NCBI RefSeq assembly: GCF_030734285.1
Contig: NZ_CP132295.1
Coordinates: 744,001 to 808,000 of the forward strand
DNA length: 64,000 nucleotides
From: Natronococcus sp. AD-5
Lineage (GTDB): Archaea; Halobacteriota; Halobacteria; Halobacteriales; Natrialbaceae
Direction of reading: 5' to 3'
Of the stretch, positions 27,385 through 41,673 are shown one piece after another; the stretch's first letter is position 1; each line of letters begins with the position of its first letter. The notes under the pieces were generated by a model that saw only the letters and a program-made list of their open reading frames with translations, was not told the origin of the DNA and ran no database searches. Made by a program: the position numbers and the translations under genes.

Positions 27385-28161
27385 TCAACCCTCCGTGCGA
27401 GTGAAGAGGAACGTCCCGATTGCAACGGCGCCGATAGCGAGCAATATGCCTATGATGGCAGAGCTCTCTATGAGTCCATCGACGAAGGTTGCGCTGGATT
27501 GCTCTTTGGTAACGTCGATTGTCGCTGACGCGGTGTCGGACTGCCCAGCCGCGTTGACAGTGGTGACGGACACTTCGTGCGTTCCCGCACTCTCGAAAGT
27601 GTGGGATAATTCGGGCTCGGAGGTCGTCTCATCGGCCGTGCCGTCACCGGTCAGATCCCACTCGTAGGACTCGATACTGTGATCATCAGTCGAATCGCTG
27701 GCGTCGAGCTTGATCTTCGTTTCCGCTTCGGCGGAGTCAGGAGCCGACAGATCGGCTGTCGGCGTCGTCGTCGCGATGACCAGGTTAGTCATCGAACTCT
27801 GTTCGCCGTCGTCGTCGGTGACGATGAGCGTCGCAGTGTGCGATCCGGCCTCCTCGAAAGTGTGCGTTGTCTCGGCATCGTGGCACGTTTCGTTCTCGTC
27901 GAAGCGCCAGCAGACGTCGGCCACTTCGTCACGCTCAGCGATTTCAGTTGCATCGACAGTGAACGATTCACCGGGTTTGACGGCGGTCGGTACCTTTGCG
28001 TCCTTGAGATCATCTTCAACGGCAGCTGATGCTGAGGCCTGTGTTGCCGGCGATGTAGTGTCGCCAAGCGCCATTGCGGGACCCATTCCTACTGTCAGCC
28101 CTACCACGATCAGCAGGACTAACGCGCCGAGACGGACGGACTGTCGGTGTGATGTGGTCAT
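27385..28161 (-). CDS. Secreted, membrane-anchored protein with two PKD domains
   Basis: 258 residues. Signal peptide LGALVLLIVVGLTVGMGPA; two PKD beta-sandwiches at about 60-140 (FDENETCHDAETTHTFEEA, GSHTATLIVTDDDGEQS) and 145-225 (LDASDSTDDHSIESYEWDL, SHTFESAGTHEVSVTTVNA); a C-terminal helix ESSAIIGILLAIGAVAIGT anchors it. The first PKD has a CWRF..ETC pair that could form a disulfide. PKD domains usually mediate protein or glycan contacts. It is 36 bases downstream of the giant multicopper oxidase on the same strand and could be co-transcribed. Confidence 0.9.
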   Translation of the reverse strand: MTTSHRQSVRLGALVLLIVVGLTVGMGPAMALGDTTSPATQASASAAVEDDLKDAKVPTAVKPGESFTVDATEIAERDEVADVCWRFDENETCHDAETTHTFEEAGSHTATLIVTDDDGEQSSMTNLVIATTTPTADLSAPDSAEAETKIKLDASDSTDDHSIESYEWDLTGDGTADETTSEPELSHTFESAGTHEVSVTTVNAAGQSDTASATIDVTKEQSSATFVDGLIESSAIIGILLAIGAVAIGTFLFTRTEG

Positions 28162-28197: not shown

Positions 28198-31100
28198 TTA
28201 CCTGCCGAGGTTAATCTGCTGATGGGCATTCGCAAGCGACATCGTCCCATGTGGGAGGTCATCACTAAACAGAGCGTACCGCGTATCTCTGGTCGTGTCA
28301 ATCGTGATCATTCCTTTCTGGACCGATATATTGGTGCCTGCCCTGTCGCCTTTGTGCTCGCCCAAGAGTGCGGCATCGGCGTTGGCAAGGCTGGTGACGT
28401 CTTCGCTTGCCACCGGACCGTAGAACAGGTACGCCGCACCAGCGTCTGTACCAGCACGATCACTATCTGGCACGCCGATCAGAATGTCGTTGTGTCTCTC
28501 TCCAGTGAAGTCGCCGGTAGCGACGGTCCAGCCGGGACGTTCCTCGAGGGGCACCTTCTTCGCACGACTTGGGAGCGGCTGGGCGCAGTCACACTCGTGG
28601 GTGTGCTTCTTCTTGTCCGCTTTCTTGTCGAGTTTGTGCGGCAGTTCGTCGACGCGTAAGATACCCCACGCGCCGGACTCGAGGCGGCGGCGCTCCTTCA
28701 TCTCCTTGTAGATGAAGTCGCCGGTGTCGCCGGCCGTTCCGCCGGCGCCGCCCTCCGGATCCATGGTGAGGCTCTTGCCGGGGGAGAACCGAGCGTCGGT
28801 AGCGATCATCGGCGAGTCCTCTACACCCTCGAAGCGCTCCCAACGATGGTTCGCGAGGTGGTACGAGATGCCCCGGGAGGCGTCGGCAGTCTGGGTGACG
28901 CGAAACTTCACGGGATCGTCGATATAGGCGCTGAACACCGGCGTCGCGGGATCGCCGTGGATCTCCGAGTCGTAGACGTGCTCTTGACGGGGGTTGTTCG
29001 CCTCGAAGCGGCGACGAAACGGCTCAGATCGGTTGTTGAACGCCATGTATCCCTGATCCTCAGGATCGCCGACCTGATTGCAGGGGTCGTCGGGATCCTG
29101 TTCGTCGTCGTCGGGATTGATCGGGACAACGCAGGTGCCGTCCTCATTGACGATGTACCGCGCGTCGCTCATCGAGAGGGCGAACTCGCGGAACTCCTCA
29201 TCGCCGCCCGTGATGATCGCCTCTCGGCTCGTGACCGTCGGCTCGCCGGTACAGGCGTCGAGCCACTCCGATCCCTCCGGCTCGACGATGAACTGGCCGA
29301 AGGCGCCGTGGTGGCGGGTGCTCCGTACGTCGGCCATGTCCCACAGGGCGGCGGGTTCGGTTTCGTCGGCGAACCAGCGGTAGGTGATCGACTCGCCGGG
29401 GCCGATCGTCTGGTCGTAGTTGAAGCCGATCGTCGCGCCGCCGGAGCCGTTGACGTCGTAGGTCAGGTGGTTGGGGTGAAGCGAGATGCGGTTCGAGCGC
29501 TCCCACTGGATCGGCAGGTCCCGCTCGGGCGTCCGCATCTGTGGGTGGTCGTCGTGATTGTCCGGCTCTTCCGGCAGGGCGTTCGTGAGCGTCACCTCGA
29601 CGCAGTCGTTCACGTTCGCGCGCAACAGCAATGGATCGGGGTGTCGGTCGCCCTTCTTGATGTCGTCGACGTGCTCGTCGAGCGCGAAGACGATGCCGTG
29701 GGGATCGTGATCGCCGTACTCGTTGAAGTCGATCCGCGTCTGCATCGCCATGACGTCGTACTCGAGGGTTCGCGCCGCGTCCGGACACGGATCACCGGGA
29801 CTGGGCGCTTGCGGTGGCGGGTTCCCCTCGACGAACTCGTTCCTCCGCCGGTTCCGGTCCGGCGGGTGCGTCGGATCGGTCGTCGGCTCGTCGAAGATGA
29901 GTTTGGCCTTGTGACCCAGCTTGTGACGTCTGTCGAACGCAGCGGGGTGTCCCATTTCCTTCAGCTGCTTCTGCGTGATCTTGCCCTCCGGCGGCTCCCG
30001 ACCGGGGAGCGGATGCAGGTGGTCGACCTCAGCGTCGAACACCCGGTGGATGCCCCACATGCCGTCCCAGAGGTCGTGGGATATCATCGAGCCATAGAGG
30101 TAGTCCCTGATCGGGAGATCTGCGGCGTTGGCCTGCTGCTCGTAGTCATGGGCATCGGCCTCGCGCACCCGGAAGTTGAACTGCTCGGAGGGAGTTATGA
30201 CCTGGGAGACGTTATCCTGCGGATCGAACCCGAAGTCGTCGAGAATTTGGCCGTGGAGGGCGAAGTTGTGCTGTTCCTCGTAGGGGCCGTGGCTCAGCCG
30301 GATCATCACCTGGTCCTCCGGATACGCCTCGAGCGTCGGGGTTTCGGGATCGCCGTGGACGAACGAGCTATGGAGGTACGCCGGATCGGGGTCGGGCCCG
30401 CGGCGGTAGTACGGCGTGTTCCGATAGTTGATCGCGCCGACGCCCGCGTTGACGCCGTGTTGCAGGTGGGGGTTGACGAACGCCTCATCCTCGGGATCGT
30501 CGGGCTGGGTGTCCAGGTCGAAGTTAGGATCGATCAGCGGCGCGAAGTCGTGGTACTGCAGACAGAACTCCCGGAAGGGTTCGTCGTCCGGCGGGTTGAT
30601 GATCGCCTGTGAGCCGTGTTGTATCGGCTCGCCGGTGTGGGGATCGAGCCACTCTGAGCCTTCGGGCTCGACGATGAGCGCGCCGAACGTGCCGTGCATC
30701 ACCTCGCCGATGCCGCTGATGTGGTCGTGGAAGAAGATCGTCCCCTCGTCGTCGGCGAACCACCGGTAGGTCATCGTCTCTCCTGGATCCGTCGCCTGGT
30801 CGTAATTGTAGCCAACCGTCGCGGAGTCCGAGGCGAGCTGGTCGAAGCCGACGAAGTGGACGTGAGTCGACGTGCCGTCGGGGAGTTCGTTCCGGACGTT
30901 GAGCTCGATGCAGTCGCCGACGTTAGCCCGGATGAACAGCGGTTCGGGCATCATCTCACCGTTCTTGATCGCCTCCTCGTCCTCTTCTAAGACGAACACC
31001 TTGCCGTCTGGATCGTAGTCGCCGTGGTCGTTGTAGACCAGTTTGGTCGGCAGGGCGACGATGTCGTAGACGAGGTCGGGCTCCATCGCCTCGATATCGT

Positions 31101-33273
31101 CCTCCGCCGGATCGGGATCCACCTCTTCGGCGTCTCCCTCGAGACACGGATCGGTGTACGGCGCGCCGGGGGCGAGCGAGGGAAGCGACTCCTGTTCGGT
31201 CGGCGTCGGCTGCCGTGGATTCTCGACCTGTGAGAGCGGCGGCTTCGGCGGCATCTCTCCCTCTTCGGCGGGGATGAAGTCGGGGAAGCCGGCGATCGGC
31301 GAGTCGAGCGGGAGTACCGGTTCGTTGTTCGGCAGCGGCTGGAGGTGCAGCTGTTCCTGGTTGTGAACCCGCATCATGCCGTTCATTCCCTCGCCGTAGT
31401 GTGGGAACATGTGGCAGTGGAACAGCAGGTCGCCGATTGCGCCGTGGTAGCCGCCGGCACCGACTTCGAATGCCTCGTCGGCGGTCACATTCGGGCGGAG
31501 TGATCGTCCCCCGGCGGCGACGGTGAGGAACTGTTCGAAGGCCGTGCCCATCCCTAGGCTCTGAGAGTCGATCGTGTCGCTGTCCTCGTCGAAGGGGATC
31601 TCGGGCCAGCGGTGCTCGTGGAGGTGGTGGGCGTGGTTCTCCTCGGGATTCGCGCCGACGGGGACGAACTTGACCGGGTCGCCCTGATAGGCCTCGAAGA
31701 CGATGTCGCCGCCGCCAGGGTCGCCGTGGACCCACGAACTGTAGAAGGACTCGCCGCCGAAGTCGGTCTGACCGACGCGCTCGGCGGTCCGTTCGGCGCG
31801 ATAGTTGATCCCGTGGAGCGTCTGCTCGATATCCGTCCCCGGAATGTTCAACTCCGGTCTGACCCGGGCGTGGTCGTGGTAGACCGGAACGAACTCGCGG
31901 TGATCCGGCATCTCGGGATGGTGGATGTCCGCTCTGGTCCCGCTACGTAGCGGCGCGCCCGTACAGGGATCGGTCCACGTCGAGCCCGGCGGCTCGACCA
32001 CGATCGCGCCGAAGAGGCCGCGGGCCATCGAGTTGATCTCCTCGTTGTTGCCGTCGCCGGGAATGCTGTCCCAAGCCTGGTAGGCGCCGTCGTGGAAGAA
32101 GTACGCGCCCCGCTGGTCGGCGTGCCAGGTGTACGTGATCGACCCGCCGGGTTCGACGACCGTGTTGTCGTTGAAGCCGACCTTCATGCCGTCGGACTCG
32201 TCGACCTCGTAGGCGACGCCCGTCGGGTGGATCGACGCCGGGCGTTCCTCGAAGTCATCCCTATCGGGGTGTTGACCGAGGCTGTTGACGAATTCGATTT
32301 CGACCGTATCACCCTCGCTGGCTCGCAACACTAGCGGCTCGATCACCGAGGTGTCGACACCCGGCGCTCCCGGCGGTACGCCTTCAGCCTCGCGGACAGC
32401 CTCGAGGTTCTCCTCGAGGACGTACATCGCGCCCATGGGATTGTTCGTGCCGAAGTTGTTGTAGGTGATCTCGACGTCGATCGCGTGAACGGTGAATTTG
32501 CGCTTCTGGCCGTCTTTCTTGTCTTTGTCCGCAGCCTTGGCCTCGAAGCCAAATTCGAAGTGGCCGCGATCCGTCTTCACGCTCTTCGGAACCTCCCACT
32601 CGAGTTCGAAGCCATGAGTCGTTCCTTCATCGAAGGGACCACGTTCGCCGTAGCTGCGGTTGCCGTCGAGAGGAATCCCACGTTTCATCGCCGTCAGCAC
32701 CTCCTTTAACGAGCCTTTAGTAATCGTCGCGTCTACGTCCTTCGGGCACTCGAGATAGCGAAGCGTGGCGTCGGTCTTTTCGATGAAGCTCGGATCGAGG
32801 TCGTCCCAATCGGTGCCCTTCAGCCAAACCTTCAGCGGACGTTCGAGGACGTGGACACCGAATTCGATCGAACCGCTCTTCCCGGGATTGAATTCTGCGA
32901 AATCCAATTTCGGACGACGTTTGCTCCCGTGGAACTGCAGACTGAACGCACGGTCGACCGAGTCACGATTGTTTTTCGAAAGTGCTGAGTAGCCGGTCTC
33001 ATGGTGTTCAGCTGCGATTTCTTCGCGTGTGTGAACGTCCTTACGTGGGTAGGCCGTCTTTGTCTTCTCGTCGTCATGATCATACACGCGGGACCAATCG
33101 AGGTGATAGAGTCGCTCGTCACCGTCGAGAAACGGCCAACTATTGGTACCAGCTAGCAAGCCAGCCGAGGCCGCGCCGGCACCGACACCAAGTCCACCGA
33201 GCAATCGGCGGCGCGTCGTTTCAATCTCGTCGATAAGTGATCCGTCTGTGAAATCTAGTTTATCTTTTGACAT
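28198..33273 (-). CDS. Giant three-unit multicopper oxidase with Tat signal and FG-GAP tail
   Basis: 1691 residues. A Tat signal (ETTRRRLLGGLGVGAGAAS) sends it outside folded. After an N-terminal region of about 230 residues come three repeats of paired cupredoxin domains, at about 235-660, 740-1090 and 1170-1540. Copper motifs: unit 1 has HAHHLHEH (about 548) and HCHMFPHYGEGM (about 619), which match the last two multicopper-oxidase motifs including the type-1 Cys, His and Met. Unit 2 has THVHFVGF (about 804) and FFHDHISG (about 847), matching the first two. Unit 1's own equivalents are degenerate (IHPTG, FFHDGAY) and unit 3 has lost nearly all. An FG-GAP-like blade (VATGDFTGERHNDILIGVP, about 1578-1600) ends it. 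Such enzymes oxidise metals (Mn, Fe, Cu) or phenols with O2; the substrate is not known. Confidence 0.92.
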   Translation of the reverse strand: MSKDKLDFTDGSLIDEIETTRRRLLGGLGVGAGAASAGLLAGTNSWPFLDGDERLYHLDWSRVYDHDDEKTKTAYPRKDVHTREEIAAEHHETGYSALSKNNRDSVDRAFSLQFHGSKRRPKLDFAEFNPGKSGSIEFGVHVLERPLKVWLKGTDWDDLDPSFIEKTDATLRYLECPKDVDATITKGSLKEVLTAMKRGIPLDGNRSYGERGPFDEGTTHGFELEWEVPKSVKTDRGHFEFGFEAKAADKDKKDGQKRKFTVHAIDVEITYNNFGTNNPMGAMYVLEENLEAVREAEGVPPGAPGVDTSVIEPLVLRASEGDTVEIEFVNSLGQHPDRDDFEERPASIHPTGVAYEVDESDGMKVGFNDNTVVEPGGSITYTWHADQRGAYFFHDGAYQAWDSIPGDGNNEEINSMARGLFGAIVVEPPGSTWTDPCTGAPLRSGTRADIHHPEMPDHREFVPVYHDHARVRPELNIPGTDIEQTLHGINYRAERTAERVGQTDFGGESFYSSWVHGDPGGGDIVFEAYQGDPVKFVPVGANPEENHAHHLHEHRWPEIPFDEDSDTIDSQSLGMGTAFEQFLTVAAGGRSLRPNVTADEAFEVGAGGYHGAIGDLLFHCHMFPHYGEGMNGMMRVHNQEQLHLQPLPNNEPVLPLDSPIAGFPDFIPAEEGEMPPKPPLSQVENPRQPTPTEQESLPSLAPGAPYTDPCLEGDAEEVDPDPAEDDIEAMEPDLVYDIVALPTKLVYNDHGDYDPDGKVFVLEEDEEAIKNGEMMPEPLFIRANVGDCIELNVRNELPDGTSTHVHFVGFDQLASDSATVGYNYDQATDPGETMTYRWFADDEGTIFFHDHISGIGEVMHGTFGALIVEPEGSEWLDPHTGEPIQHGSQAIINPPDDEPFREFCLQYHDFAPLIDPNFDLDTQPDDPEDEAFVNPHLQHGVNAGVGAINYRNTPYYRRGPDPDPAYLHSSFVHGDPETPTLEAYPEDQVMIRLSHGPYEEQHNFALHGQILDDFGFDPQDNVSQVITPSEQFNFRVREADAHDYEQQANAADLPIRDYLYGSMISHDLWDGMWGIHRVFDAEVDHLHPLPGREPPEGKITQKQLKEMGHPAAFDRRHKLGHKAKLIFDEPTTDPTHPPDRNRRRNEFVEGNPPPQAPSPGDPCPDAARTLEYDVMAMQTRIDFNEYGDHDPHGIVFALDEHVDDIKKGDRHPDPLLLRANVNDCVEVTLTNALPEEPDNHDDHPQMRTPERDLPIQWERSNRISLHPNHLTYDVNGSGGATIGFNYDQTIGPGESITYRWFADETEPAALWDMADVRSTRHHGAFGQFIVEPEGSEWLDACTGEPTVTSREAIITGGDEEFREFALSMSDARYIVNEDGTCVVPINPDDDEQDPDDPCNQVGDPEDQGYMAFNNRSEPFRRRFEANNPRQEHVYDSEIHGDPATPVFSAYIDDPVKFRVTQTADASRGISYHLANHRWERFEGVEDSPMIATDARFSPGKSLTMDPEGGAGGTAGDTGDFIYKEMKERRRLESGAWGILRVDELPHKLDKKADKKKHTHECDCAQPLPSRAKKVPLEERPGWTVATGDFTGERHNDILIGVPDSDRAGTDAGAAYLFYGPVASEDVTSLANADAALLGEHKGDRAGTNISVQKGMITIDTTRDTRYALFSDDLPHGTMSLANAHQQINLGR

Positions 33274-34584: not shown

Positions 34585-35268
34585 TACTTGGAGAAGGCCT
34601 ACCGCGAAGCGCTCGACCTCTTGAGCGAAATGTCACAAATATTAGCAGATATCGGCCTCCTCAAGACCGATCTCCCTGATCACTCGACGCTAGTAAAGGC
34701 ATTTGATAGGATTAAGATGGCAGTCTGACAAGTGGTGCTGCGCCGTCAGGCGCAGCTCTACGAGCCATCTGATCATGCAGCGATGAACGCGACGTTTTTC
34801 GACCGCGAAAACGCGAGCAAACACTACTGCCGTCGCACGAATTATTGCGTGCAGACGCTCAAAACAACCGCGCTCGTCGATACAGCGTCACAGGCTATCC
34901 CCGACGTTCATTGCACGACCGAGAAACGTCACGACACGCAGATCGGCTGGCAACTCGCCCGCCGTAACGCGGGCGAGTTGCACAGCCTCGCTGCCGACAA
35001 AGGCTACGGCTGGCAACGATTACGCGATAAACTTCGGGAAGAGGACGTAAGACCACTGATAAAGCATCGTGAGTTCCGTCCCATCGATCCGCGCGTTGTG
35101 CGCGTGATCGATGGGACTCTCTATGGTCAAAGAGCGCTGTCTGAGACCGTCTTCTCGGTTATCAAGCGCACGCTCGGTGACGCCGTGCGTGCGCGAAGCT
35201 GGTATCGAGAGTTCCGTGAAATCGTTCTGATGTGTGCCGTCTACAACATCAAACGTGCTGTGAGCTAG
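34585..35268 (+). pseudogene. IS5-like transposase, truncated and with in-frame TGA
   Basis: From about 34585: YLEKAYREALDLLSEMSQI, LLKTDLPDHSTLVKAFDRI, then TGA at 34727-34729, then LRRQAQLYEPSDHAAMNAT, FFDRENASKHYCRRTNYCV, and the end PIDPRVVRVIDGTLYGQRA to YREFREIVLMCAVYNIKRA. The DDE residues in DATFFDRE-type (here NATFFD), ALVDTASQA and the C-terminal E region suggest the first Asp has become Asn. The N-terminus is missing. The right end TATGGCGATTCACCA (35284-35298) is shared with the copy near 49.55 kb. Confidence 0.8.
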
Positions 35269-36951: not shown

Positions 36952-37250
36952 TTGTCTGGCGATATGGGACGTCTCAGAAACCTCGCACGGACGTTTCAGG
37001 AGTTCGCCACGACCAATGTAGAGGAGCCAGACGTACCCGCTATCGCCGACGGCGACGACGGGTACGACAAGTCAACTAAGATCGCGCTTCTCCTACTCAA
37101 AGAAGAGATTGACAAACCGCTCCGAAAATTCGAAGAATATCTTAACGAGATGCCCGGTATCATTGATGTACTGGGTATCGAGAAATCATCGGACTACACG
37201 TCGTTTAGCGAGTGGGACAGTGAATTTCCGATGCAGGAGTTGCGCCGCCT
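36952..37250 (+). pseudogene. Halophile transposase N-terminal fragment (IS5-like)
   Basis: Starts MGRLRNLARTFQEFATTNV (at 36964), then YDKSTKIALLLLKEEIDKP, LRKFEEYLNEMPGIIDVLG and FSEWDSEFPMQELRRLL, the N-terminal domain of a halophile IS5-type transposase. After LRRLL the sequence changes into another element (antisense, next entry) and the DDE domain is absent. Confidence 0.65.
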
Positions 37251-37870
37251 GCTCCCCCTTCTCTGGACGTATCTGGGAGAGGCATCGCCGTCGTCACCGG
37301 AACAATGGAGCAAGATACCATAGTTTTGACCCTTCGATGAACACCGCTAGCGACAGCTATTGCATCTTCTGACTCCAAGAACCGGTCTCTGACGCCGTAA
37401 AACCGTGAGTGATCGTCCCCACCCCGACGCCGTCTTGCGTTCAACAAGGTAAGATCAGTCGAGAAGCGATCGCACCACGTTCGCCAGAGTGTCGATTGAT
37501 TTGGAACCGTCTCGAACCCGAGTTGTTGGCGAACGGCTGATCGGCGTTCAAGATGCTTGATTAGTGCTGTTTCATGAATCCAGCCATGGACTTCTTTGAG
37601 GAGAAATGCACGTACCAATGGTTCCATCTCATACGTTGCTGGGCCGCTGTAGCGATCATGAGCCCTGAAATCAACGTACTTGAGCGGAAGGCTACGAATA
37701 AACTCGTCAACGGTATTATGCGCAGAATGAGCGAACCAAGCTGATGCGACCGTTCGGATATCCTCTTCGAGCGCACTGAGCGAACTGCGATCGTACAGTG
37801 GTGTTGAATCGTACGCTGGCCAGTCGTAGTATGAGGTCGTCGCGATTGCCCGGAAAATGTCACGTCGCGA
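37251..37870 (-). pseudogene. Transposase N-terminal fragment (second IS, opposite strand)
   Basis: Minus-strand frame open from about 37865: AIATTSYYDWPAYDSTPLY, LEEDIRTVASAWFAHSAHN, TVDEFIRSLPLKYVDFRAH, EMEPLVRAFLLKEVHGWIH, ETALIKHLERR and VPNQSTLWRTWCDRF. This is the N-terminal region of a halophile transposase; the catalytic half is lost where it meets the IS5-like fragment near 37250. The IS family is not assigned with certainty. Confidence 0.65.
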
Positions 37871-39189: not shown

Positions 39190-40974
39190 CTAGTAAGAGC
39201 CTTCATGAGATCCCTCATGGAGCTCTATATCCAATGGCTGCGGGGCTAAATCGTACACGACTAGGTTTTCAATCCGCGCGGCACCGTTCTCCGCGAAGAG
39301 CGAAACGTCAGTGCTATCCCAGTCGGGAAACACGAGGTTCGTCATCGTCCGGTTCCCGTCGTTAGCGAAGATTTCGACGACCGACCGATCGACGAGAATC
39401 TGAAGTTCGATCGTTCCGCCCTCGCGCGGCTCGAGCGGCATACTCGTCGCGTCTTCCTGGCCTTCGTCAAAGAAATCGTCCGCCGGGCCATCAACTGACG
39501 AATCCGTCCGTTGGAATACCAATTGGGGGACTTCAGAGGGAGAAGCATCGCTCACTGGGCTATCGTCTGGGTCCGTATAATAGGTAATGCGACTCTCGTC
39601 ATTCGCACCCTCTCGAACGCGGAATCCAACCTCATCAGCGGTGTGGGGATCAATAGTCGCGCGGATCTCGAGTGAGCGACCTTCAGCGTCCGTCCCGTCT
39701 AGCGGATCCCTGCCCGGCGTGATCATCTCCGAACTGAGTTCGGCCAGCGTTTCTTGTCGCAGGTCCTCCAGCTCCGCTACGGGGTGTTGTCGCAGTTCGA
39801 CATAATCGTTTCCTTCCTCAAGGGTAACCTCACGTGGAACCGACATGCTTCCGCGCCATCCGGTTTCAGGGATGATCCCCATGTACGGCCAGTGCCCTGC
39901 CCAGCCGATCTGGATTCGACGGTCGTCGGGCTCATTATCCCAAGAGATAGCGGCATAGTAATCGTAGCCGTAGTCTGCGATCATGCGGTCTTCCATCGTG
40001 AACTCATGCCCATCGAAGTCGCCAATAAGGTGATCTTCACGAGGGTTATCGTGGCCATCCTGAGTATTCCCGACGGAGACCGTCAGTACCCACTTCGTTT
40101 CGTCGGTGCCTTCAATTGGCAACTCGAAGAGGTCTGGGCACTCCCAGATATCCACACCATCATCGTACACGCCGTCATCAGTCTCAATTCCGGCGACAGT
40201 TTCCTTGTACTCCGCAATCGTGAATGTACTCTCGTACGTCCAGTTGATGTGGTCCTTGGAGCTATAGATCTCGATACCAGCGGGCCGCTCTTCCCCATCG
40301 TCGTCGCCATCGTAAACGCGAGAAACGACCATAATCCACCGCTGGTCCGGCTCGTACCAGAAGACATTCGGATCACGGAATTCGGGATCGTTGGTATCGA
40401 CGACCGGATTTCCGTCGTACGGCGTGACCGTCTTCCCGTTATCGGTGCTATACGCAATACGTTGATCTTGGATTGGATCGTCAAAGTGAGCGCCAGTATA
40501 CGACAGAATTAGTGCCTCTTCACCGAACCCAGCTGTGTTTTCTTTGTCAACCGTCGCAGCCCCGGAGAATTTCGCGATATTGTTCTCGTCATCAAACGGG
40601 AGTTTGATACCGTGGTACGTCCAGTTGAAGAGATCTCTACTGGTCGCATGCCCCCACTGAATATCCTCCCACCACGGGTCGTGGGGATGATACTGGAAGA
40701 ACAGATGGTAGATACCATCGTGATAGACCAATCCGTTCGGATCGTTTATCCACCCTTGCGGTGGCGCAAAGTGGAAACCCGGTCTCCACGGATCCTCTTC
40801 CGATCCTTCGATTTGTTCTGCGGCATCCGTAGCCGAGACGTTCAGACTTGTGCTACCGAGTGCAGTCGTCGCGAGCAGACCACTTCCTGTCGTGCGCATC
40901 AAATTTCGGCGATTGAGCGTCGATGACTCCTTCAGCGATTCTCCTTCGGACTGTGAGTGGTTATTTTGCACCAC
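39190..40974 (-). CDS. GH32 fructan hydrolase (levanase/invertase-like), Tat-exported
   Basis: About 594 residues. GTG 40974 or 40971 is the likely start, since earlier codons to 41124 cross the AT-rich promoter (TATATAGT near 41034). A Tat signal (LNRRNLMRTTGSGLLATTA) indicates secretion. The five-bladed catalytic domain has the nucleophile in WINDPNG, the transition-state residue in EFRDPNVFW, and the acid/base Glu in IWECPDLFEL; a C-terminal beta-sandwich includes LQILVDRSVVEIFANDG. It cleaves beta-fructosides such as levan, inulin or sucrose outside the cell. No transporter or regulator is next to it, and IS debris flanks it. Confidence 0.92.
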   Translation of the reverse strand: MVQNNHSQSEGESLKESSTLNRRNLMRTTGSGLLATTALGSTSLNVSATDAAEQIEGSEEDPWRPGFHFAPPQGWINDPNGLVYHDGIYHLFFQYHPHDPWWEDIQWGHATSRDLFNWTYHGIKLPFDDENNIAKFSGAATVDKENTAGFGEEALILSYTGAHFDDPIQDQRIAYSTDNGKTVTPYDGNPVVDTNDPEFRDPNVFWYEPDQRWIMVVSRVYDGDDDGEERPAGIEIYSSKDHINWTYESTFTIAEYKETVAGIETDDGVYDDGVDIWECPDLFELPIEGTDETKWVLTVSVGNTQDGHDNPREDHLIGDFDGHEFTMEDRMIADYGYDYYAAISWDNEPDDRRIQIGWAGHWPYMGIIPETGWRGSMSVPREVTLEEGNDYVELRQHPVAELEDLRQETLAELSSEMITPGRDPLDGTDAEGRSLEIRATIDPHTADEVGFRVREGANDESRITYYTDPDDSPVSDASPSEVPQLVFQRTDSSVDGPADDFFDEGQEDATSMPLEPREGGTIELQILVDRSVVEIFANDGNRTMTNLVFPDWDSTDVSLFAENGAARIENLVVYDLAPQPLDIELHEGSHEGSY

Positions 40975-41116
40975 ACCGGTTCCGATCACGGTTGGTTGGT
41001 AAAATTTAACGATAATGTTTATTTCTGTATGGTATATAGTGTTGAATATTAATTTCGAAGACCAAGAACGGTAACGAACGAGGGGCGCAAGAACTGTATT
41101 AGATCGCTGAGATACT

Positions 41117-41673
41117 GTGTCCACGAACCAGGGAACTCCTTGAAGTCTATCGCGCGGTCGCGAATCAGGTCACGACCGAAAGTACTCGTACGCAAATTCT
41201 CGACGCACTCGAGACACGCGAACGCGGGCTCACGGGCGAATCTGTTGAACCCGTTGCGACCGAGCCGACACCAGCCACGGCGATCGCCACCGACGGCGGC
41301 ACCGCTGCCGAATCCGAAACCAATCAGGAACCAGAATCCACGCTGGAACCCGACGACCTCCGTCCCGACGTGTGCGGACTCGAGGCTGGCGAGGTCCTAG
41401 TCTTCGATCGCGACGGCAGTACGGAGTGCCCTTCCCGATACTTCTGAAAGCGGTGAGCCGTATCTCTGCCGCGCGCTCGACGACGAAGACAACGAGCGCA
41501 CCGACGAACCGATCCCGCTCGCGACCGCTAAGATCCACTTCCGGTTCGACTTCGAGACCGAGGCGGTTGCGATAGACGGCGACGTGAACGCGCCGGCACA
41601 CGCGGCAACAAAAAACGAGCGGACGATCATGACTGCTGGTGGTGTCGATACCGAGAGAAACGAGGTCGATTAA
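41117..41673 (+). pseudogene. Frameshifted haloarchaeal hypothetical gene
   Basis: Frame one: LLEVYRAVANQVTTESTRT, QILDALETRERGLTGESVE, then an acidic linker, LRPDVCGLEAGEVLVFDRD and ends ECPSRYF-stop at about 41446. A second frame continues LCRALDDEDNERTDEPIPL, KIHFRFDFETEAVAIDGDV and ends at 41673. The two parts are consistent with one protein broken by a frameshift near 41440. Family not recognised; plasmid- or virus-associated character is a guess. Confidence 0.5.

Follow-up and report, generated by a model that had tools for sequence, protein, structure and literature searches.

An MnxG-like six-domain multicopper oxidase with a predicted domain 2/3 copper site and a fused TasA-like domain in a Natronococcus-like haloarchaeon

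We analyzed a large oxidase gene in a 64,000-nucleotide stretch of haloarchaeal DNA (the window, to which coordinates refer unless another locus is named). The open reading frame (ORF) at 28198-33273 on the minus strand encodes 1691 residues and is intact, without internal stops. A gene for a PKD-domain protein lies 36 bases downstream on the same strand. The gene, its parts and this neighbor are as follows:

28198..33273, minus strand: MnxG-like six-domain multicopper oxidase, ORF of 1691 aa
33148..33273, minus strand: probable Tat signal region, residues 1-42 (TRRRLLGG), near the TIGR01409 cut-off, with a recurrent RR motif
32518..33126, minus strand: TasA/camelysin-like N-terminal domain, residues ~50-252, from alignment, Pfam matches of orthologues and a model
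31354..32511, minus strand: unit 1, cupredoxin domains 1-2, residues 255-640, from alignment and model
31618..31635, minus strand: motif C, HAHHLH, residues 547-552 (T1 H547; T2/T3 H550 and H552)
31384..31419, minus strand: motif D, HCHMFPHYGEGM, residues 619-630 (T3 H619 and H621; T1 C620, H625 and M630)
30019..31071, minus strand: unit 2, cupredoxin domains 3-4, residues 735-1085, from Pfam Cu-oxidase_3 at 767-871 and model
30856..30864, minus strand: motif A, HVH, residues 804-806 (T2/T3)
30721..30729, minus strand: motif B, HDH, residues 849-851 (T3)
28651..29772, minus strand: unit 3, cupredoxin domains 5-6, residues ~1168-1541, without a complete copper motif, from the co-linear MnxG segment 1151-1542
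28423..28533, minus strand: FG-GAP repeat, residues 1581-1617
27385..28161, minus strand: PKD-domain protein, 258 aa (PKD_4, E 1.6e-25)

A preliminary description of this locus had proposed a Tat signal, an FG-GAP tail and an enzyme of the manganese-oxidase kind, and our results support all three. The N-terminus carries the motif T-R-R-R-L-L and scores 16.3 bits against TIGR01409, just below the cut-off of 16.7; an RR-x-[FLIVM] motif is also found in most haloarchaeal members of the family, and the product is probably Tat-exported. The tail matches Pfam PF01839 (E 5.6e-5). By both sequence and fold, MnxG is the closest solved relative. In the PDB, the top sequence hit is the Bacillus sp. PL-12 MnxG (9bxa; phmmer E 5.7e-198), aligned in two co-linear segments (residues 258-1099 and 1151-1542) with every ligand in register. 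A profile of 27 haloarchaeal relatives matches 9bxa at E 4e-298 and the next protein at 3e-17. An AlphaFold model of residues 252-1102 (pLDDT 86.2, pTM 0.88) also has 9bxa as its best structural match (TMq 0.81; Z 33.0 over 751 residues at 2.8 Å), followed by factor Va (Z 24.0), ceruloplasmin (Z 23.5) and two-domain laccases (Z about 23). A literature search found no paper on the 9bxa structure.

The protein shows the features of the MnxG-like family: six-domain co-linear homology, a T1 site in domain 2, and eight histidines across domains 2 and 3. It scores 192 bits against NCBIfam NF041487, the copper_ox_MnxG equivalog, with a cut-off of 3100; a canonical, mnxEFG-linked MnxG (L085) itself scores just 321 bits, which indicates that this model of 1894 positions describes another, longer branch. 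The haloarchaeal clade is separate from canonical MnxG in our tree, at ~34% identity. By identity, the haloarchaeal enzymes are closer to a Neobacillus-type group (38-39%) than to canonical MnxG (34%); the tree, by contrast, joins the two Bacillus groups, a placement that carries a long-branch warning.

We assessed the copper ligands in an alignment of 45 proteins, comprising 36 haloarchaeal sequences (the window protein included), 8 from Bacilli, and 1 from a Nitrososphaeraceae archaeon. The standard multicopper-oxidase assignment gives T1 ligands H547, C620, H625, and M630; T2 ligands H550 and H804; and T3 ligands H552, H619, H621, H806, H849, and H851. All 12 implied ligands are identical in 45/45 proteins. 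Their MnxG counterparts are H281, H284, and H286 in motif C; H334, C335, H336, H340, and M345 in motif D; H529 and H531 in motif A; and H575 and H577 in motif B. Position 340 of 9bxa reads Ala, as its title ('Mnx H340A complex') leads one to expect, and this identifies the aligned H625 as the T1 histidine.

The preliminary description had placed motifs C and D in unit 1 and motifs A and B in unit 2, and had suggested a search for other proteins with this order. The positions are confirmed, and the same order is present in haloarchaea, Bacilli, and the Nitrososphaeraceae archaeon, without exception among the 45. Hence the order is ancient and maintained rather than an accident of this gene or its assembly; origin by chance or mis-assembly is ruled out by this agreement. 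Two observations could still be read as signs of a mis-assembled or decaying gene, namely an orthologue in pieces in N. jeotgali and transposase-like ORFs nearby, but with an intact window ORF and the same order and ligands in every homologue we give that reading practically no credence.

The other copper sites are degraded as first described. Unit 1 has IHPTG (348-352) and HDG (394-396) in place of motifs A and B, and unit 2 has lost motifs C and D (H1002 followed by LHGQ at 1006-1009, and HDL replacing HCH at 1066-1068), with D1067 at the unit-2 Cys position in all 45 proteins. The sequences of domains 4 and 6 hold no complete copper motif. A site of the ceruloplasmin/hephaestin type, which draws on domains 1 and 6, is thus lacking here, as the A/B motifs of domain 1 and the C/D motifs of domain 6 are both incomplete. 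We note that H349, H1002, D1067, D1312, and E1532, inside the lost sites of units 1-3, are invariant in 45/45 proteins. This invariance suggests that the remnants are under selection, either structural or perhaps for metal binding.

Superposition of the model on MnxG, together with ligand conservation, indicates that the four motifs meet. A trinuclear T2/T3 site would be formed by H550, H552, H619, and H621 of unit 1 and H804, H806, H849, and H851 of unit 2. A single trinuclear cluster at the domain 2/3 interface, as the preliminary description had proposed between units 1 and 2, is well supported by ligand conservation and the predicted structure, and MnxG is nearest by sequence and fold. Two-domain laccases carry motifs A and B in the first domain and C and D in the second, and in their trimer the C/D domain of one subunit abuts the A/B domain of the next. 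A tandem triplicate of such a laccase-like unit contains three equivalent inter-unit interfaces (2/3, 4/5, and 6/1); the lineage of the window protein retained a full copper site at 2/3 only, and ceruloplasmin retained 6/1. The claim that the motifs are permuted therefore holds for their order but not for a permutation: the protein is co-linear with MnxG, and one of three interfaces was kept. A true circular permutation is excluded by the same co-linearity, as nothing has moved. The tempting reading of 'permuted' motifs thus gives way to a standard MnxG-like layout, set by which equivalent interface survived.

Nor is the domain 2/3 site new, as had been supposed; it was published in 2013 for MnxG-like proteins (PMC3600357). 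In that paper, Vasin et al. place a domain 2/3 trinuclear site in all bacterial six-domain oxidases analyzed, in algal ferroxidases including Fox1, and in haloarchaeal Hlac_1576 and Htur_3146, with T1 confined to domain 2 in the prokaryotic proteins (PMC3600357). The design of mnxG PCR primers likewise relies on a D-then-A/B motif order (PMC3039467). The central motif-order finding is correct but already known. New here are the haloarchaeal frequency of about 6%, the two copies in one genome, the lack of detectable MnxE/F, and the TasA/camelysin-like N-terminus.

Long matches (E < 1e-100) occur in 24 of 392 sampled haloarchaeal genomes of the order (~6%), spread over many genera and often with two or more paralogous lineages per genome. 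The genome under study has a second oxidase copy on the same 1.02 Mb contig, and the congeners N. amylolyticus (L060) and N. jeotgali (L076) have homologues. In N. jeotgali the orthologue (L034:7304-12051; also L076) consists of two ORFs that overlap at ATGA, has an in-frame TAG further upstream, and appears from its sequence to be a decaying or fissioned copy. Some relatives (L074 and L075) are plasmid-borne, which suggests gene transfer. A Nitrososphaeraceae archaeon MAG encodes two MnxG-like oxidases (L088:7836-13154, and L087), the former with all copper ligands intact.

The less expected part of the finding, missed by the preliminary description, is the TasA-like domain ahead of the oxidase. 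Among the full-length set, residues 1-250 are common only to the Natronococcus relatives and two further sequences (L035 and L036). The window N-terminus aligns with stand-alone haloarchaeal proteins of the camelysin/SipW-cognate family. Orthologous N-termini exceed the PF12389 cut-off of 22.5 (25.6 bits for L035 and 24.0 for L036); for the window's own N-terminus no Pfam family passed, PF12389 included, and Pfam and NCBIfam searches of it alone detected nothing but the Tat signal. When residues 1-252 were modeled, with moderate confidence (pLDDT 68), both aligners ranked the B. subtilis TasA fibre 8aur first (Foldseek E 4.3e-4; Z 8.7), and two further TasA entries followed by Z at 7.8. Together, the alignment, the PF12389 matches of the orthologues, and the TasA-like model suggest that the oxidase of the window branch carries a fused domain of matrix-fibre type. 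Both TasA and the archaeal bundling pili related to it form donor-strand-exchanged matrix fibres (PMC9674648), and the fusion suggests that metal oxidation is coupled to the biofilm matrix.

Judged from its sequence, the downstream PKD protein starts with what looks like a signal peptide and ends in a hydrophobic segment or anchor, and it may be a surface partner of the oxidase. The same PKD gene lies beside the oxidase at the second locus of this genome and in N. jeotgali as well. In the window this gene (27385-28161) is intact, while a frameshift divides its counterpart beside the second oxidase copy (L032:7069-7854) into two ORFs. Across haloarchaeal loci we found no conserved neighbor besides this PKD gene in Natronococcus. 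Neobacillus loci such as L078:6072-14371 show the gene row CopC, CopD, MnxG-like oxidase, and PKD protein (620-750 aa), so a PKD protein adjoins the oxidase in two distant lineages. Upstream of the oxidase, the window holds ORFs at 34732-35268 and 37205-37627 that look transposase-like by sequence; with the plasmid-borne relatives, these suggest a mobile neighborhood. A GH32 family glycoside hydrolase of the levanase/inulinase kind lies at 39190-41124 (Pfam Glyco_hydro_32N, E 2.9e-78).

Activity and successful expression of the Bacillus MnxG depend on MnxE and MnxF (PMC5622069). Sequence searches found neither in the genome under study or in two congeners, although a diverged replacement is conceivable; as controls, the MnxE and MnxF queries gave E values of 1.4e-41 and 2.8e-30 in Paenisporosarcina and 2.4e-19 and 2.6e-16 in N. 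niacini F8. An mnxE-mnxF-mnxG arrangement is present in Domibacillus tundrae, Paenisporosarcina indica, and one Neobacillus niacini F8 locus. In the Neobacillus-type group (L078-L083, L090, and L092), the oxidase follows CopC/CopD-like genes and precedes a PKD-domain protein of 620-750 aa, and clear MnxE/F are also absent from at least one genome of this type, that of Bacillus sp. EB01. The Mnx complex is encoded with MnxE and MnxF beside MnxG, and no such pair was detected in the genome under study; for this reason, and because the haloarchaeal enzymes are closer in identity to the Neobacillus-type group, we name the product MnxG-like rather than assign it to the Mnx complex. With no MnxE/F detectable, an enzyme of this type may prove more tractable for expression and study than the Bacillus complex.

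Taken together, it is highly probable that the gene encodes an exported MnxG-like six-domain multicopper oxidase of a Natronococcus-like haloarchaeon, with its copper site between domains 2 and 3 and most likely a metal ion as its substrate. The ligand set strongly implies that T1 and the trinuclear site carry out multicopper oxidase chemistry. In the copper-loaded enzyme, the domain 2 T1 copper would take up electrons from the substrate and relay them over the H-C-H bridge to the trinuclear site, for the reduction of O2 to water. The most likely substrate is an extracellular metal ion in reduced form, with Mn(II) ahead of Fe(II) or Cu(I), and anchorage in the cell-surface matrix is probably provided by the TasA-like domain together with the downstream PKD protein. 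A metal ion is favored by three lines of evidence: kinship to MnxG, probable Tat export, and E545, which lies two residues before T1 H547 and is invariant in 45/45 proteins; the acidic pair E544/E545 is invariant in the haloarchaeal set. Alternatively, the enzyme could behave like a laccase and oxidize phenols or other organic compounds. It does share the multicopper oxidase core of two-domain laccases (Z about 23), but fold and sequence are far nearer MnxG, and the invariant pair beside H547 would be better suited to a metal ion than to a phenol pocket; we regard a laccase-like role as improbable.

Among metal ions, Mn(II) is a plausible prediction to which we give about even chances. The same architecture could instead serve a ferroxidase or cuprous oxidase, with Fe(II) or Cu(I) as physiological substrate and a role in tolerating or acquiring metals, not in forming Mn minerals. 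This would fit the lack of detectable MnxE/F, the CopC/CopD-like copper genes that adjoin related Neobacillus-type genes, and the domain 2/3 site that Vasin et al. report for the algal ferroxidase Fox1 (PMC3600357). However, the nearest relative of solved structure oxidizes Mn, and none of the genes seen beside the window oxidase is one for copper or iron uptake, so we hold Fe(II) or Cu(I) to be possible but clearly less probable than Mn(II). A literature search found no paper on Mn oxidation by haloarchaea. If the window enzyme oxidizes Mn(II), haloarchaea of soda and salt lakes would join the manganese cycle. A bolder and rather unlikely extension is that some haloarchaea have an MnxEF-independent, Tat-exported Mn(II) oxidase that is built by its TasA-like domain into a surface matrix fibre and templates mineral there. 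Such a fibre-borne Mn(II) oxidase would amount to an archaeal manganese-biomineralizing filament.

Among known systems, MnxG (9bxa) is the closest: its six cupredoxin-like domains are co-linear with those of the window protein, its T1 site is likewise in domain 2, and domains 2 and 3 supply the same eight histidines. It consists of the six domains alone (~1220 aa), with MnxE and MnxF encoded beside it, whereas the window protein has a probable Tat signal, a TasA-like N-terminal domain, and an FG-GAP tail, and no MnxE/F were found for it. Haloarchaeal Hlac_1576 (1525 aa) and Htur_3146 (1476 aa) belong to the same family with the same published domain 2/3 site; they are shorter than the window protein, and the sections of Vasin et al. 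cited here mention no TasA-like domain for them (PMC3600357). Chlamydomonas Fox1 shares a trinuclear site between domains 2 and 3 (PMC3600357). Yet Fox1 is a eukaryotic ferroxidase that retains an additional T1 site, located in domain 4. Ceruloplasmin and hephaestin share the six-domain fold (Z 23.5) but have their trinuclear site between domains 1 and 6 and three T1 sites. The TasA/camelysin fibre proteins (8aur, 5of1, and 5of2) resemble residues ~50-252 in predicted fold, but the window domain is fused to an oxidase and has diverged in sequence (12-14% identity). The protein is thus an ordinary member of the known MnxG-like family with an unusual fused TasA-like domain.
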